A stretch of DNA of 64,000 nucleotides, from NCBI GenBank assembly GCA_017545525.1, contig JAFWMT010000004.1, forward strand, positions 1 through 64,000, in the 5' to 3' direction. Numbering within the stretch: position 1 is the first letter of the stretch; the number at the start of each line of letters is the position of its first letter. Source of the DNA: Candidatus Saccharimonadota bacterium. Its GTDB lineage: Bacteria; Patescibacteriota; Saccharimonadia; Saccharimonadales; Saccharimonadaceae. The notes under the pieces are model-generated. The model ran no database searches and was not told where the DNA came from. It saw only the letters and a program-made list of their open reading frames with translations. The translations under genes and the position numbers were made by a program. Shown here piece by piece: positions 973 to 58,098 of this stretch.

Positions 973-1761
973 ATGGACGAAATGGATATTCTTAAAAAAG
1001 CAGGGCTATCTGAAACGCAAGCCTTAGTTTACAATTGTTTGTTAAAAAACGGCGCTATGACCCCAGCGGAACTTGCCAAAAACACCGATCAGTCTCGTGA
1101 AAACTGCTATATGATAGCAAAGAAGCTCATGGAACTGAACTTAATCGAACAAACCGACAATAAAAAAAGCACCTATCGTGTGCTGAACCCAACTAATTTA
1201 GAAATCCTCGCCGAAAAACGTCGTAAAATCGTCGCTAAAAACGAAAAATTTGTCAAAGACAACCTATCGTCACTACTAGACATCTTTTACGCCAATAATG
1301 AAATGCCTGGAGCTAAGACACTAGAGGGGATAGAAGGAATCAAAGAGGTCTATCTTGATATTCTTAGAACCAAAAAGGATGTTTATTTCTTGCGTACCGA
1401 AGCAGATGAAGAATTATGGGGACATAATAAAGAGTTAGTCGAATTCCTAGATGATTATCGCAAACAAAGAGCAATACTAGGCATGCGTGTATACGCACTT
1501 ACGCCCGCGGCGCCGAACTCAATCAAACACGTTAGAGCTGGCGGTGACAATGCCTGGAATTTTGAACGCGTATGGATGCCACGAGACGCCTATTCTGCAC
1601 CTACTGAAATACAAGTTTATGGTGATAAAGTTGCGCTTATAGCATACGGCGAAACTCAAATGGCAACCATCATCACTAGCCCTGCTATCGCTGAAGCTAT
1701 GCGCCAAATCCTAAAAATTATGATGGAGCATTACAGTAAAAGTTTTAAACAGGAGTACTAA
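973..1761 (+). CDS. TrmB-like transcriptional regulator
   Basis: Residues ~5-70 form a TrmB-type winged helix-turn-helix (an AGLSETQALVYNCLLKNG helix, then AELAKNTDQSRENCY and a wing ending STYRVLNP). A coiled linker (~75-100) follows, then an effector-like domain of about 150 residues. TrmB-family proteins are known as sugar-responsive regulators in archaea, but in CPR genomes they are common and their ligands unknown. The start has TATAAT six bases upstream (box overlapping the previous gene's end), suggesting a leaderless mRNA. The gene abuts the next one with no gap (TAA then ATG), so the two are almost certainly co-transcribed. DNA binding is well supported; the regulated target is unknown. 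Confidence 0.8.
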   Translation: MDEMDILKKAGLSETQALVYNCLLKNGAMTPAELAKNTDQSRENCYMIAKKLMELNLIEQTDNKKSTYRVLNPTNLEILAEKRRKIVAKNEKFVKDNLSSLLDIFYANNEMPGAKTLEGIEGIKEVYLDILRTKKDVYFLRTEADEELWGHNKELVEFLDDYRKQRAILGMRVYALTPAAPNSIKHVRAGGDNAWNFERVWMPRDAYSAPTEIQVYGDKVALIAYGETQMATIITSPAIAEAMRQILKIMMEHYSKSFKQEY

Positions 1762-2856
1762 ATGGAAATTCTTAAATCTACGCCAGAGGTAAGCAGTAAT
1801 AACGCATCGGTTGAAGACGATAATAATAACGAAACCATAAAAGAAACCCATGAGCGCAAAAGAGTATTCTTCGGTAGGACCAAAGATGGGGCCGAAGTAT
1901 ACGATAGACCAGACAGCCATTTTCACAGCGAAGGTGGGCTGACACCAGAGCTATTAAAAGAGGCTTTGAGCACTATTGAAACAAATAGCAGACCATTTAT
2001 TAGAGAATTAGTTCGTTTTGATTATATCATCGGTAGCAAGACCTGCGTCGAAGTGGGGCCAGAAGATGAAGTTGTAATGGTATATCGAAAGGGAAGGAGT
2101 GGGCCAACTCCATTAGTCAAAAATCGTGAAGCTTCTCCATGCGATTCAGTAACAGTCATATTGAGGAAAGATCGTTCTGTTCGCGACAGAGACGTTTACG
2201 AAACTTTAACTAGTTATGTCGGCGAGGGCTCCCCAAGAGAACCATGGGACCCGAATCTAACTTCAGAAGAAGATCGCAAAGAATGTGAAGATTATTGGAA
2301 AACCCACGCTCTGTTATATGACGATGGTTTAATTGACTGGGAAAGGACTAAAGCTTTTGAATTCATGTCCGAGCCTGCCAAAGAGGCAGAACTTATCCGA
2401 CAGAGAACGGTTTTTGCCGGCTTGTTTCTTGATCCGGAAGATTTATATACAAAAAAACCAGCGACTCTAGAGAAAGTCGTTAAACATCCACATGTAACCA
2501 CAGCATTTAAACCTAATTCTGGCCAATTGCATTTAGATCAAATCGGCAGCAACGCGAAAATATACGCTATAGGCTACGGTAATAATGGCGAGAATGAAGG
2601 TTTACTGGTTAAAATCGAGGCAGATAACCCAGAAATTCAAGAAGTTTGCGACGCACTAGAGACCCCCCACATCACCTTATCTACTAGTAGGAAAGGTCAA
2701 GCCAAGAATACAGCTTTTCTTGATTTTACGCCACTTGAAGAACCAATCGAGTTGACCGGGCAATTTGGACTATTCTCTCAAGGCTCCGTCATACAGAATC
2801 AAGAAAAATTACAACAATTAAAAGACAGAATTACAACAAATCTTCAGTCAAAGTAA
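1762..2856 (+). CDS. 2H phosphoesterase-like C-terminal domain protein
   Basis: 364 aa, soluble. The first ~30 residues are low-complexity and acidic. Residues ~55-200 form an unrecognised domain. The C-terminal part carries two H-x-T motifs, HVTT at 243-246 and HITL at 303-306, set in strand-like context (AIGYGNNGENEGLLVKI between them). Paired HxT/S motifs mark the 2H phosphoesterase superfamily, which acts on 2',3'-cyclic or 2'-5' phosphodiester bonds, often in RNA repair. Spacing (60 residues) is slightly short for the family. The gene starts directly at the stop of the TrmB-like regulator, so it is probably its operon partner. The 2H call is motif-based inference; the N-terminal domain is unknown. 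Confidence 0.6.
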   Translation: MEILKSTPEVSSNNASVEDDNNNETIKETHERKRVFFGRTKDGAEVYDRPDSHFHSEGGLTPELLKEALSTIETNSRPFIRELVRFDYIIGSKTCVEVGPEDEVVMVYRKGRSGPTPLVKNREASPCDSVTVILRKDRSVRDRDVYETLTSYVGEGSPREPWDPNLTSEEDRKECEDYWKTHALLYDDGLIDWERTKAFEFMSEPAKEAELIRQRTVFAGLFLDPEDLYTKKPATLEKVVKHPHVTTAFKPNSGQLHLDQIGSNAKIYAIGYGNNGENEGLLVKIEADNPEIQEVCDALETPHITLSTSRKGQAKNTAFLDFTPLEEPIELTGQFGLFSQGSVIQNQEKLQQLKDRITTNLQSK

Positions 2857-2930
2857 CCATTTTGTAAAAATAGATTTTACAATTTTTAATGTTTTCTATC
2901 TCTGTTATTTTCAATATTATTTATAATTTA

Positions 2931-2959
2931 TTTACTTTTTGTCAAGTTTGTTATATAAT
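2931..2959 (+). promoter_or_regulatory. Promoter of structured RNA unit
   Basis: A TTTACT -35 box (2931-2936), a 17-base spacer and a TATAAT -10 box (2954-2959). Predicted transcription starts near 2966 and reads into the hairpin-rich leader of the 102-aa ORF. Confidence 0.75.
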
Positions 2960-2965
2960 GATGAC

Positions 2966-3144
2966 AAGTTCGCAGGAAGTGTGAATTAGCAAATTAAAAA
3001 GTTTGCGTGAATACTCACGCGGGAAGTGATATTTGAAAAGGGCCCTCGGGGTTCCGCCCACCTCCTTAAGATGGGGAGAATGGGTGCCGTAAACATGGAC
3101 TATAAGCCCTTCGGGGTGAAGGTCGCGGCGGGAAGGTCATCAAT
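2966..3144 (+). ncRNA. Structured leader / 5' part of candidate large RNA
   Basis: About 180 nt between the promoter and the small ORF, with clear local hairpins: GCGTGA/TCACGC (3005-3020), CCCACCTCC with GGAGAATGGG (3057-3083) and a UUCG-capped GCCC/GGGG stem near 3105-3117. The motif CGCRGGAAGTG occurs twice (near 2971 and 3018). It ends with a purine-rich GGGAAGG ribosome-binding site ~9 bases before the ATG. I cannot match it to tmRNA, RNase P, SRP RNA, 6S or any riboswitch I know. Confidence 0.5.
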
Positions 3145-3453
3145 ATGACTAACATTCCTTTTCTTTCCCCTAACACAATAGCCTGCATTGCTCGTGGTTC
3201 TGTTTCTCTTGAACAGAACTACTACTACCACTCTCACGGGTGGGGCAATCGCTATTGCGTCAGAGTTGCCTATCCTAACGGATATGGTGCTTCCATCGTC
3301 TTCTCGCCCGAATGGGACGACGAAGAATGTTGGGAGGTCGGCCTTTTAAAGGACGGCAAACTCTGGAGTGATGATGAAAGATACGACTGTGTATGGTCGG
3401 GTCTTGACGAAGTAGGCGTTATTGCAATCTGCGATAAAATCTACTTCATGTAA
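3145..3453 (+). CDS. Small phage/plasmid-like protein, 102 aa
   Basis: The protein is rich in aromatic and acidic residues. Its core RYCVRVAYPNGYGASIVF (~37-54) resembles the PNGYGASV core seen in many short proteins encoded by phages and other mobile elements (recognised from memory, no search run). It is followed by a CWEVGLLKDGKLWSDD stretch. No function is known to me. It sits alone within the hairpin-dense transcript (promoter at 2931, terminator at 3982) and has a GGGAAGG ribosome-binding site. The local DNA is more GC-rich than neighbouring genes, which may reflect transfer. The reading frame is convincing; the role is unknown. Confidence 0.65.
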   Translation: MTNIPFLSPNTIACIARGSVSLEQNYYYHSHGWGNRYCVRVAYPNGYGASIVFSPEWDDEECWEVGLLKDGKLWSDDERYDCVWSGLDEVGVIAICDKIYFM

Positions 3454-3981
3454 TCATCACTAGGGGAGGCGAGTCTTCGGACTCGCCCCGGACGTTGTTT
3501 TGGCCGGCTCCGCCATGAGCCGTTAAGTGCGCAAATGAGCGCACATTGGCCGGCTCCACTCTGAGCCGTTGAGTGTGTCGAAGCCTGTCAGAAAAGGACG
3601 AGGGGCGGGGGGCCGGAGCCTATCCAGAACAAGGGATAGGGACACACATGGTCTACTTTCCGCGGTAGTATCTCATGCGGAAACCTGTATTAAACCAGCG
3701 CATGGTGCGTTGGTACTCGCGGAGCGAAAGAGCCAAGAAGAGATTATCTTGGCGGACGCGTCGAGATAGTTTCTTACTTCTCGGCGGACGCGCTGGGAAG
3801 ATGGCTTATAAGCAGCGAGTGCAGGTTGAGGAAGAGTTTTGCAGATGTTTTCCTGCCTAGGGAGGGGAGTGGAAAAATCTGAGCGAGCGCGACCCTTAGC
3901 GGGGATATGGGGAAGGGAGAAATCCCTCGCGTGAGTCTGGATGGTGTCAATGCCGGCCCATCCTAGTGCCAAATTGATCAT
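3454..3981 (+). ncRNA. Candidate large structured RNA (3' part)
   Basis: About 530 GC-rich bases with no convincing gene but many clean stems: GGCGAGTC-TTCG-GACTCGCC (3468-3487), two tandem copies of a TTGGCCGGCTCC hairpin unit (starting 3500 and 3546, period 46), GTGTGTC...GACACAC enclosing CCTATCC/GGATAGG (~3573-3647), CCAGCGCA/TGCGTTGG (~3697-3715), GCCAAGA/TCTTGGC (~3731-3752), and GGCGGACGCG repeated near 3751 and 3783. A strong terminator follows. Short open frames on both strands are by-products of low stop density. The class is unknown; it could be a novel ncRNA or the catalytic or structural part of a mobile element. Confidence 0.5.
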
Positions 3982-4007
3982 CCCTGGCATTATTGCCAGG
4001 GGTTTTT
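3982..4007 (+). terminator. Terminator of structured RNA unit
   Basis: A perfect stem CCCTGGCA-TTAT-TGCCAGGG followed by GTTTTT. It closes the transcript that starts near 2966. Confidence 0.85.
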
Positions 4008-4071
4008 CATGGTTTTAATAGGCACTTTCAGATAATTTTGTTATAATAAATCCATAAGAGGAGTAAAAATT

Positions 4072-4302
4072 ATGTCAAACAACGGTGAAAAACGATTTAT
4101 GCCAAGTAGTAATCCAGACTGGGATCTTGAACTCCCTGACGGAGACGACAATTCTTTAGTCACAAAGGATGGTAAAAGTTGGGACAACGGTTATAATTTT
4201 GATGAAAAAGACGATGACGAAAAAGATACACCAGAAGAATTCGATCCAGCAGCAGCTCAAAAAGCCAGGGAAGAAGCCATTAAAGAAAAATCGCAAGATT
4301 AA
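4072..4302 (+). CDS. Small acidic hypothetical protein, 76 aa
   Basis: Very acidic and probably disordered, with a DEKDDDEKDTPEEFD stretch in the middle and a lysine/glutamate-rich C terminus. No domain is recognised. It has its own promoter (TTATAAT near 4041-4047) and a GAGGAG ribosome-binding site before the ATG, and it converges with the MazG-like gene two bases downstream. Reading frame and signals support a real gene; function is unknown. Confidence 0.65.
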   Translation: MSNNGEKRFMPSSNPDWDLELPDGDDNSLVTKDGKSWDNGYNFDEKDDDEKDTPEEFDPAAAQKAREEAIKEKSQD

Positions 4303-35210: not shown

Positions 35211-36428
35211 TCACCCTCTTTTTCTCCAGTATTCACTCCAGTTCTTCGTCATACTCAAATCCGAGTACTCCGATTTTTCCTGGAACTCGTACTGTTCTAC
35301 CGGAATCGGTAAACGCGCGTTAGCACGCGAGAAAGGACGTATCTTGTCCAAATTCTCACCGGCCATAAATCGCATCGCAGTCTGGATATCTAGTTTGAGC
35401 ATATCCAGATCCGTCAGCTCGCGTTTTGTCGGGTTTCGGAGCCCCAGCTCCTGCCCCTGATAGAGGCAAATGCCGGTTGGGTTACTACCAAACAGCATCC
35501 GTACCTCTTCGTAATGAGTCAAAGACTCATCTCGAGACAGGAACCTCGGAGCATCATGCGACTCAAAGTCGAGCATGAACTTCGGGTGCTCCGATTGTTG
35601 CCGAATGAGCTCAATAAAAAGTCCTTTGCCCTTCTTGTTAAACTCATCCTTCAGCAGCATATTGACGACGAAGCCTATCGGAGTACTATCCGTATAGTAT
35701 TCCGTCAGCTCTCCGAATGTCGGGTCGACGCACTCCATCATGAGGAAAAGGTTTTCTCGGCCATTAGTGAAAATCTCATTGATGACTTTTTTCGCCTTTT
35801 CTCCGACCAACAAGTCTTCGAGCGCTAAATTCTCGCTCGAAAAATCCTTATTAATCGCCTGAGGAACATCCAACCTGAACCCGTCGACTCCGTACTTTAC
35901 AGTCCAGAAATCGACAATTCTCCGAAACTCATACACTAGAGCATGGTTAATCAGAGAAATATCGTTCCACGGGAACCAATCTAAGTCCGCCTGTTCCTCA
36001 TGGAACAGATGGAGATAGAAATCTCCGTTTGGCTCGTGATATTGCCATGCCGGCCCTCCGTCAAACAGGTTTTTCCATCCAGGCTTATCACCTTCGCTCC
36101 AACAATAATATGAGGGGCGCTCGGTGAACCAAGGATGTTTGGTTGATGTATGATTCAGCACCATATCCATCAACACGCCAATCCCAAGTTCATGGGCCGT
36201 CTTGACGAACTCGTCGAAGTCCTCCAGCGTTCCGAATCTTGGATCAATCGCCTCGTAATCGGCGATATCATATCCGTGATCAAAACGCGGGGAAGGGTAG
36301 AGCGGGCTCACCCACACATAATCCACCCCAAGTTCCTTGACGATTGACAGGTGCTCTGTCATCGTCTTTATACCACCCATCGCCTCCCAGGCAATAGGCC
36401 ACATCTGATAAACTAATGTTTTTGCCAT
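35211..36428 (-). CDS. GH13 alpha-amylase family glycosidase
   Basis: 405 aa (beta/alpha)8 barrel. Regions are visible: DMVLNHTS (I), GFRLDVP with the nucleophile Asp (II), MMECVD with the acid Glu (III) and ESHDAPR (IV; here Ser-His-Asp rather than Asn-His-Asp). It resembles oligo-1,6-glucosidase or trehalose-type enzymes, but is ~100-150 residues shorter than usual, lacking most of the C-terminal beta domain. No signal peptide, so it acts on internal oligosaccharide. Codon use is more GC-rich than its neighbours, which may mean transfer. GGGGAGG precedes the ATG. Confidence 0.88.
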   Translation of the reverse strand: MAKTLVYQMWPIAWEAMGGIKTMTEHLSIVKELGVDYVWVSPLYPSPRFDHGYDIADYEAIDPRFGTLEDFDEFVKTAHELGIGVLMDMVLNHTSTKHPWFTERPSYYCWSEGDKPGWKNLFDGGPAWQYHEPNGDFYLHLFHEEQADLDWFPWNDISLINHALVYEFRRIVDFWTVKYGVDGFRLDVPQAINKDFSSENLALEDLLVGEKAKKVINEIFTNGRENLFLMMECVDPTFGELTEYYTDSTPIGFVVNMLLKDEFNKKGKGLFIELIRQQSEHPKFMLDFESHDAPRFLSRDESLTHYEEVRMLFGSNPTGICLYQGQELGLRNPTKRELTDLDMLKLDIQTAMRFMAGENLDKIRPFSRANARLPIPVEQYEFQEKSEYSDLSMTKNWSEYWRKRG

Positions 36429-57097: not shown

Positions 57098-57195
57098 AAA
57101 ATAATCATAACAGAATTGACTTTTTTCGTCAAGTATGGTATAATGATAAGATACGAGTATCTTACTGGCACATTAAAATATAAGGGGGTAAAAGA

Positions 57196-57642
57196 ATGAT
57201 TGACGCATTTGCCGACTGGCTAAAGTCGATATTTGGCCGTCTCAGAGATGAGCAGTCTAAAGAGTTATCTCTCTTGATTCAGTCCTACCGGGCTGAATTA
57301 AGTAGATTCTATGATCTAGAAGATGAGATAGAAGCCTTGCCGAAAGACGAAGCAACTGATAATGCTGTTGCGAGCATCAAATCGATGCTTGCATATACAG
57401 AGAAAACCTTTTTCGAGACTCGGAAAAGGACTGACCTCATTGATGAGAGGCAAGTATTGTATCGCAAAAGTGCGTTTGTGCTTGCCGAAGCCAATAAATT
57501 TCTTGAAAAGGTGATCTTTTTTAAGAATAACGAGATTGGCGTAAGAAAGAAAGAAATTGAAGAAGCTAGCCTGATTGCTAGCAATGCATTATGCACTTCA
57601 GAATTTTCTTTTCAAATCTTATTAGGGAAATATATAAAGTGA
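57196..57642 (+). CDS. Hypothetical helical protein, first of a paralogous pair
   Basis: 148 aa, helical, charged. The part LYRKSAFVLAEANKFLEKVIFFKNNEI...KKEIEEASLIASNALCTSEFS (~95-140) lines up with the next gene's product. I do not recognise the family. The promoter has TATAAT (~57138) and a palindrome AGATAC-GA-GTATCT just downstream of it; AAGGGGG precedes the ATG. The two genes form a 2-gene operon ended by a terminator. Confidence 0.65.
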   Translation: MIDAFADWLKSIFGRLRDEQSKELSLLIQSYRAELSRFYDLEDEIEALPKDEATDNAVASIKSMLAYTEKTFFETRKRTDLIDERQVLYRKSAFVLAEANKFLEKVIFFKNNEIGVRKKEIEEASLIASNALCTSEFSFQILLGKYIK

Positions 57643-57657
57643 TTAGGGAGGGACGTT

Positions 57658-58074
57658 ATGCCGGTATTCAACATTTTCACAAAAGAAAAAAAGAGGCAGC
57701 AAGAAATGTTGTCAATCGCAAAGCTCTCGTATAAAAACGAGCGTCGAAAGTTTTTGGAACTTGAGAAAAAATATCATATTTCAGATTCTGAAAACGACAT
57801 CGTAGGTTGCCTAGTTAGCACCATCAACTTAATGGTTGACGATCTTCGCCTAGCACTTCGAGCTAAATTATCACTCGAAGAAGAGGCGACGTTGTATAGG
57901 AGTAGTGCTTCAACCATATCGAAAGCAAACTCCTTCATGAATAAATTTCTTGTTTTTAAGAAAATCGGAAAACGAGAGTTTGAAGAAGCTAAGGCAATCG
58001 AAGACGCCGCTTTCTATAAAGCGAGCGAGTTTAGCAAGCTCTTTGCCAACGCATCCAGCGTAAAAACTCTATAA
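57658..58074 (+). CDS. Hypothetical helical protein, second of the pair
   Basis: 138 aa. Its C-terminal half (LYRSSASTISKANSFMNKFLVFKK...EFEEAKAIEDAAFYKASEFS) is paralogous to that of the preceding gene, indicating an old tandem duplication. The N-terminal halves are much more divergent. No domain known to me. GGGAGG precedes the ATG; the spacing is 15 bases. Confidence 0.65.
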   Translation: MPVFNIFTKEKKRQQEMLSIAKLSYKNERRKFLELEKKYHISDSENDIVGCLVSTINLMVDDLRLALRAKLSLEEEATLYRSSASTISKANSFMNKFLVFKKIGKREFEEAKAIEDAAFYKASEFSKLFANASSVKTL

Positions 58075-58098
58075 CTGGGCCAAAAGCCCAGTTTTTTC
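58072..58098 (+). terminator. Terminator of paralogous pair
   Basis: AACTGGGC-CAAAA-GCCCAGTT followed by T run, immediately at the stop codon. Confidence 0.88.

Follow-up and report, generated by a model that had tools for sequence, protein, structure and literature searches.

GORS, the pervasive folding of coding RNA beyond what composition accounts for, is known from persistent RNA viruses and is tied to interaction with innate RNA defences (PMC3950689). Among bacterial RNAs, GOLLD, ROOL and OLE are large and ornate (PMC12286853). Csx3 and DUF1874 proteins are cA4 ring nucleases, and Csx1 and Csm6 are the RNases that they switch off (PMC7371418). Here we analyse a transcription unit at positions 2931-4007 of a 64-kb stretch of DNA (hereafter the window) from the episymbiotic Saccharibacteria. 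That it is a regulated unit with selected structure we hold to be very probable. To the whole statement, a TrmB-linked folded transcription unit with an RNase-protection purpose, we give a probability of about 0.5; hardening against RNases, taken as the purpose by itself, is a tentative proposal.

The unit occupies a chromosomal locus in a 107-kb contig, near the 16S rRNA gene and tRNAs, in a genome assembly of ~0.72 Mb. The window begins (1-340) with the 3′ end of 16S rRNA, followed by a terminator-like hairpin, and the remainder of its 64 kb contains no match to 23S rRNA. All elements that the initial annotation had listed for the unit, i.e. promoter, ORF, GC-rich hairpins and terminator, are present, on the forward strand. 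The promoter was correctly described as TTTACT (2931-2936), a 17-nt spacer and TATAAT (2954-2959). Upstream of it lies a perfect palindrome, TTGTAAA-N7-TTTACAA (2862-2882), the sole full copy in the genome, which is kept in nearly all homologous units. Between this putative operator and the -35 element there is a CTCTGTTATT box (2900-2909), whose spacing is fixed across the aligned homologues. The palindrome, the CYCTGTTA box, TTTACTTTTTGTCAA and TATAAT form a promoter module of ~110 bp common to nearly all units, and a profile search found this module in two to three copies at several loci of relatives (E 1e-7 to 1e-19). A TTCGCA/TGTGAA hairpin (2969-2985) stands at the 5′ end of the transcript, as does one of the same kind in homologues, and the intrinsic terminator at its other end (3982-4007), which had been called perfect, is a perfect 8-bp hairpin, CCCTGGCA/TGCCAGGG (3982-4001), followed by G and T5. 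A 102-aa ORF was found where one had been annotated (3145-3453). The tandem 46-base repeat described downstream of it held in part: two copies of a GGCTCC..GAGCC hairpin (3500-3576; ~3500-3530 and ~3546-3576, of the form TGGCCGGCTCC..GAGCCGTT.AGTG) are indeed there, but each is only ~29 nt long and Tandem Repeats Finder did not report them. The second copy is present in one related genome (G844) and absent from two others (G216 and G314).

Over the unit, GC content rises from ~0.34 to ~0.56. Against dinucleotide shuffles, folding energies gave z of -6.4 for the ORF, -3.3 for 3451-3640, -7.2 for 3641-3950 and -1.4 for the leader alone. The initial annotation could place the RNA in no class, and the Rfam search agreed: at gathering score the window contains nothing besides rRNA and tRNA, 2860-4080 has no match below E=0.39, and tmRNA, RNase P, SRP, 6S, introns, GOLLD, ROOL, OLE and HEARO had no match at gathering score in the unit or in sister clusters. 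Matches that appeared at relaxed thresholds were judged to be chance only.

Two parts of the transcript are real structured RNA families, with strong covariation and no Rfam match. The L-module (3036-3144, forward strand) is a leader that ends at the start codon, and in the cases seen it always lies upstream of an ORF of the phage family phrog_4074. Since the folding energy of the leader by itself is ordinary, the evidence for the structure that the annotation had assigned to it is covariation. Across nine homologues, 8 of 26 pairs have changed on both sides (CGAC/GUCG to UGGU/ACCA, for example), 99.1% of cells are paired, and there are 20 double-changed cells against 6.8 after shuffling; the covariation score was reached in none of 500 shuffles. 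We rejected the leader as a coding N-terminal extension: the frame is open in some homologues, but single-base indels break it in the window and in G826b, a second copy in G826. The T-module (3645-3950, ~310 nt, forward strand) is a closed multi-branched RNA. Its outermost helix closes the whole domain, and at the centre a long stem, CUCGCGGAGCGAAAGAGCC ... GGCUUAUAAGCAGCGAG, bears two hairpins, both tipped by GCGGACGC. In 11 aligned sequences 95.3% of cells are paired and 42 of 92 pairs have changed on both sides, compared with 16.9 in shuffled alignments and 6-11 in slid controls. Covariation of the hairpins, a check suggested at the outset, was thus seen for both modules, with the T-module score likewise reached in 0 of 500 shuffles.

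The position of the L-module would suit classical cis-regulation, with the leader gating translation in response to a ligand or a protein and the 3′ RNA making the mRNA more stable. The module abuts the start codon, its unpaired TATAA and GAA stretches are nearly invariant, and it accompanies phrog_4074-type ORFs even in units that have no T-module (G025, G775, G777 and the second copies G826b and G314b). Such gating, however, leaves the folding of coding sequences for unrelated proteins, described below, unexplained, and we regard it as distinctly unlikely.

The ORF is real and its protein is under selection, as indicated by dN/dS of 0.26-0.41 relative to the diverged homologues in G314, G826 and G807. 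Its likeness to short phage proteins, noted in the initial annotation, was borne out by profile searches, by which it appears to be a distant member of phrog_4074: the window ORF alone matches weakly (0.084), three of four aligned homologues match (best 4.5e-5), and the homologue behind the same leader in G777 reaches 3.4e-17. The window ORF had no match in Pfam or PADLOC, ring nucleases (Csx3, DUF1874) included. AlphaFold2 predicts a compact alpha/beta fold (pLDDT 86.6), for which Foldseek found nothing in the PDB below E 0.7 and VIA-align gave Z of at most 5.9. The best viral structure matches (TM ~0.6, E 0.02) are uncharacterised phage proteins, and no function follows from them. With its covarying hairpins and phage-type ORF, the locus fits the idea of an RNA-plus-small-protein unit outside the known RNA classes.

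The RNA of the ORF is itself folded. With codon-preserving shuffles its z was -6.0, second among the 58 ORFs of at least 85 aa in the window; the ORFs ranked near it are antisense to tRNA genes, antisense to the T-module, a piece of an alpha-amylase gene and a small ORF at 57196. The internal fold is partly conserved (12 of 95 pairs double-changed against 5.4 in shuffled alignments, a value reached in 0 of 500). Folding of this kind could be a by-product of GC content or of recent inverted duplications, arising without selection, and the ORFs of the units are GC-richer than their neighbours and the background z has outliers. Shuffles that preserve codons and dinucleotides, however, hold composition constant, and between roughly one half and four fifths of the pairs in the ORF of the window genome (G000) recur in homologues of 69-79% identity, with compensatory changes, which makes an origin without selection very unlikely.

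Folding of coding RNA is found across the ORFs behind this promoter family. The mean codon-shuffle z of 32 such ORFs was -3.97, against -0.26 for 17 controls taken at those loci and in the window (Mann-Whitney p 1.4e-7, which overstates independence given the manual choice of ORFs and the homology among some of them; several unrelated families are nonetheless folded). Two of the 32 lack folding (an 80-aa ORF at L013, and L110). In phages, members of phrog_4074 and phrog_20678 show no such folding (z -1.1 to +1.1), so that it belongs to these transcripts and not to the protein families. Besides phrog_4074, the regulon includes Csx3 (Pfam 9.6e-8, PADLOC 1.7e-19), STIV_B116/DUF1874 (1.1e-12), phrog_10007, phrog_20678 (upstream of T-modules) and ORFs of no known function; the Csx3, B116 and phrog_10007 units carry no T-module. 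By eye, the 114-aa proteins ('FFGFALADSMF..') encoded behind clade-C operators resemble B116; the family had no Pfam or PADLOC match and was not counted as a ring nuclease. Since unrelated ORFs are folded and the regulon contains anti-signalling gene families, the transcripts might be folded to evade surveillance by base pairing (through crRNAs, Argonaute guides or antisense RNA) rather than to evade RNases. Type III CRISPR Cas10 is absent from the window genome and above cut-off in none of 170 genomes of the genus, which speaks against this explanation, and we consider it improbable.

Folding also occurs where the operator is absent, as two other regions of the window show. One is a second two-ORF unit (57140-58090), encoding proteins of 148 and 138 aa that have no match in Pfam. 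Its promoter (TTGACTTTTTTCGTCAA..TATAAT) is similar, it has a GCACATTAAAA leader and lacks the TTGTAAA palindrome, and the coding RNA of both ORFs (57196-58074) is folded (z -4.5 and -2.6). The other is the middle 306-nt piece of the alpha-amylase gene (35217-36428, reverse strand), with a codon-shuffle z of -5.1, which counsels caution over z values of single genes. Several loci of relatives are recorded here as separate observations. The strongest folding seen (z -11.9) is that of a 210-aa ORF behind a clade-C operator (L124, reverse strand). At L102 (7694-8661), two neighbouring STIV_B116/DUF1874-like genes, the first matching PF08960 at 1.1e-12, occur without CRISPR context. ORF-free RNAs of ~1.1 kb follow the same promoter next to TrmB in G314 and G826 (L097, 12100-13262, and L098, 5843-7069, both on the reverse strand); most of their 260-nt pieces are folded (z to -4.9) and they have no Rfam match. 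A conserved leader RNA (..GGTGGGTGAGCAGGGAAGTA..; ~300 nt after the clade-C promoter) occurs at about seven loci within L115-L127 with differing downstream ORFs, and 10 of its 57 predicted pairs are double-changed.

The proposed cognate regulator is a TrmB-family transcriptional regulator of 262 aa encoded upstream of the unit (973-1761, forward strand; PF01978 9.8e-12, 45 bits against a cut-off of 25.6). Homologues occur in 30 of 170 genomes of the genus, and a TrmB-family gene adjoins most loci with such units. We found 36 operators in 29 TrmB loci and none in 15 shuffled sets; at many loci the operator is within ~60 bp of the divergent TrmB gene, and several relatives have two to three copies of the palindrome within ~10 kb. 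The operator arms change with the divergence of TrmB, from TTGTAAA (at least 65% identity) to TTGTCAA (43-46%) and TTGTCGA or TTGTCAA (32-36%), and the 7-bp spacer and the box are retained. Five of the 29 loci had no recognisable operator (L111, L113, L114, L118 and L126). Regulator and operator have thus co-evolved, and TrmB presumably binds the palindrome. A TrmB-linked regulon is well supported; its purpose, and the direction of regulation by TrmB, we infer. Right after TrmB lies a gene for a 364-aa protein (1762-2856, forward strand; phrog_23674, 1.8e-30) with C-terminal HVTT...HITL motifs, in which the H-x-T-T and H-I-T positions are invariant in five homologues. Read by eye, these motifs look like those of a 2H phosphoesterase, a reading that is unproven because neither Pfam nor profile comparison with 2H structures gave a match for the protein, and its AlphaFold2 model is poor (pLDDT 39.7).

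By blastn, the unit has matches, some of them weak, in 16 of 174 genomes of the genus and in one genome of another genus. Complete units are found in G807, G216, G826 and G314, and also in G828, where the unit is cut by a contig end. The T-module occurs alone or with another ORF in G035, G844 (two copies), G777, G852, G833 and G280 (the other genus), and the L-module, as noted above, also occurs with its ORF alone; the two modules can therefore be joined or apart. The T-module of G035 follows a promoter copy with nothing in between (TTTACTTTTTGTCA|TGGGATAGGG), and this junction, together with the separate modules, is consistent with recombination at shared promoters. In G833, a small ORF of PPPLPPRR repeats (L066, 3769-3960), SH3-ligand-like by eye, directly precedes a divergent T-module. 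Searches of IMG/VR, phage and plasmid collections with the ORF, the L-module and the T-module returned no homologue, the two pattern matches (L019 and L035) turning out to be unrelated on reading or scanning, and a covariance model of the T-module (R1) matched the window alone in a sample of the phylum; such sampled, prefiltered scans are lower bounds, as the 'family' run missed G314, which blastn had found.

The initial annotation had suggested that the unit might be mobile and had asked whether it sits at different loci. The latter was observed for both the unit and its modules, and their patchy occurrence would also fit an autonomous mobile RNA element, for example an intron-like retroelement. 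This origin is nevertheless highly improbable. Neither Pfam nor PHROG identified a mobility gene in the unit, whose sole ORF is the 102-aa one; no integrase, reverse transcriptase, terminal repeats or target duplications were seen; an Rfam intron core is absent; the flanks are common to G000 and G807; and the modules are separable and stand behind other ORFs. We conclude that the unit is most probably not an autonomous mobile element and that its modules probably recombine between loci.

The distribution also bears on the strongest rival explanation, in which the T-module forms a functional RNA class of its own (a ribozyme, scaffold or regulatory RNA) fused downstream of small ORFs, with the ORFs and the leader as mere neighbours. 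In G280, G035, G844 (L061) and G852 (L063/L101) the module has its own promoter and no ORF, in G844 and G777 it follows an ORF of a differing family, phrog_20678, and its fold is closed and covaries. A role of the T-module by itself, however, accounts neither for the folded ORFs nor for the T-module-free units (Csx3, B116, phrog_10007), and the module has no Rfam relative; we think such a role unlikely.

We favour the reading in which the unit is regulated and its transcript is selected for pervasive structure. The TrmB-family protein from the upstream gene would bind TTGTAAA-N7-TTTACAA and control the promoter, as the co-variation of operator and regulator suggests. A single transcript would then carry, in order, the 5′ hairpin, the L-module up to the start codon, the folded phage-type ORF, the T-module and the terminator, and most ORFs behind the promoter family are folded alike, irrespective of the protein they encode. 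Near-complete base pairing may let the transcript resist single-strand-specific RNases, so that the accessory genes would stay expressed during an RNase-type response, set off perhaps by cyclic nucleotides or a toxin. Because unrelated ORFs share only their folding, the function that fits is a property of the RNA, and we prefer RNase resistance because the sister genes are of ring-nuclease types. With Cas10 absent above cut-off, some other system, or toxins, would have to supply the RNase. Put more broadly, and tentatively, episymbiotic Saccharibacteria may possess accessory transcripts under regulator control, some coding and some not, in which selection on synonymous sites, together with dedicated RNA modules, has produced folding over the full length. 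These transcripts would survive and be translated while single-strand RNases of conflicts based on cyclic nucleotides or toxins degrade ordinary mRNA, and would form a bacterial, DNA-encoded parallel to viral GORS.

Bacterial mRNAs are not usually folded so pervasively, and the folding may shield these transcripts against defences that cut RNA. No bacterial regulon whose defining feature is the folding of its coding sequences is known to us, and a limited search of open papers found neither such a regulon nor such units described. The findings tie a bacterial regulator family to promoters whose transcripts, coding parts included, are selected for structure. If folding does protect mRNA from RNase-based immunity, this would be a new principle of counter-defence. 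The operator, the regulator and the modules also provide handles on a little-studied group of symbionts.

The locus touches several known systems. Archaeal TrmB proteins control sugar genes; they have the HTH domain (PF01978) in common with the regulator described here, which is instead tied to folded phage-type units. The phage family phrog_4074 includes the 102-aa ORF and the other ORFs behind L-module homologues, whereas the phage members tested have no recognisable leader and no folded coding RNA. Crn3/Csx3 and Crn2/AcrIII-1 (DUF1874) are encoded by sister units in relatives, not by the unit in the window, and in a genus with no Cas10 above cut-off. HEARO and the omega RNA of IscB likewise combine a structured RNA with an ORF; the unit here, in contrast, has no Rfam match and no nuclease ORF. 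GOLLD, ROOL and OLE resemble it as large, closed, covarying bacterial RNAs whose role is unassigned or partly known, but the RNA described here lacks an Rfam match and comes with small folded ORFs and an operator of TrmB type. The unit works like GORS, in that the coding RNA of the window ORF beats codon- and dinucleotide-preserving shuffles (z -6.0 and -6.4), yet it is not a GORS member: GORS is a feature of RNA virus genomes of vertebrates, whereas the folded RNAs of this regulon are short bacterial chromosomal transcripts that share a promoter.
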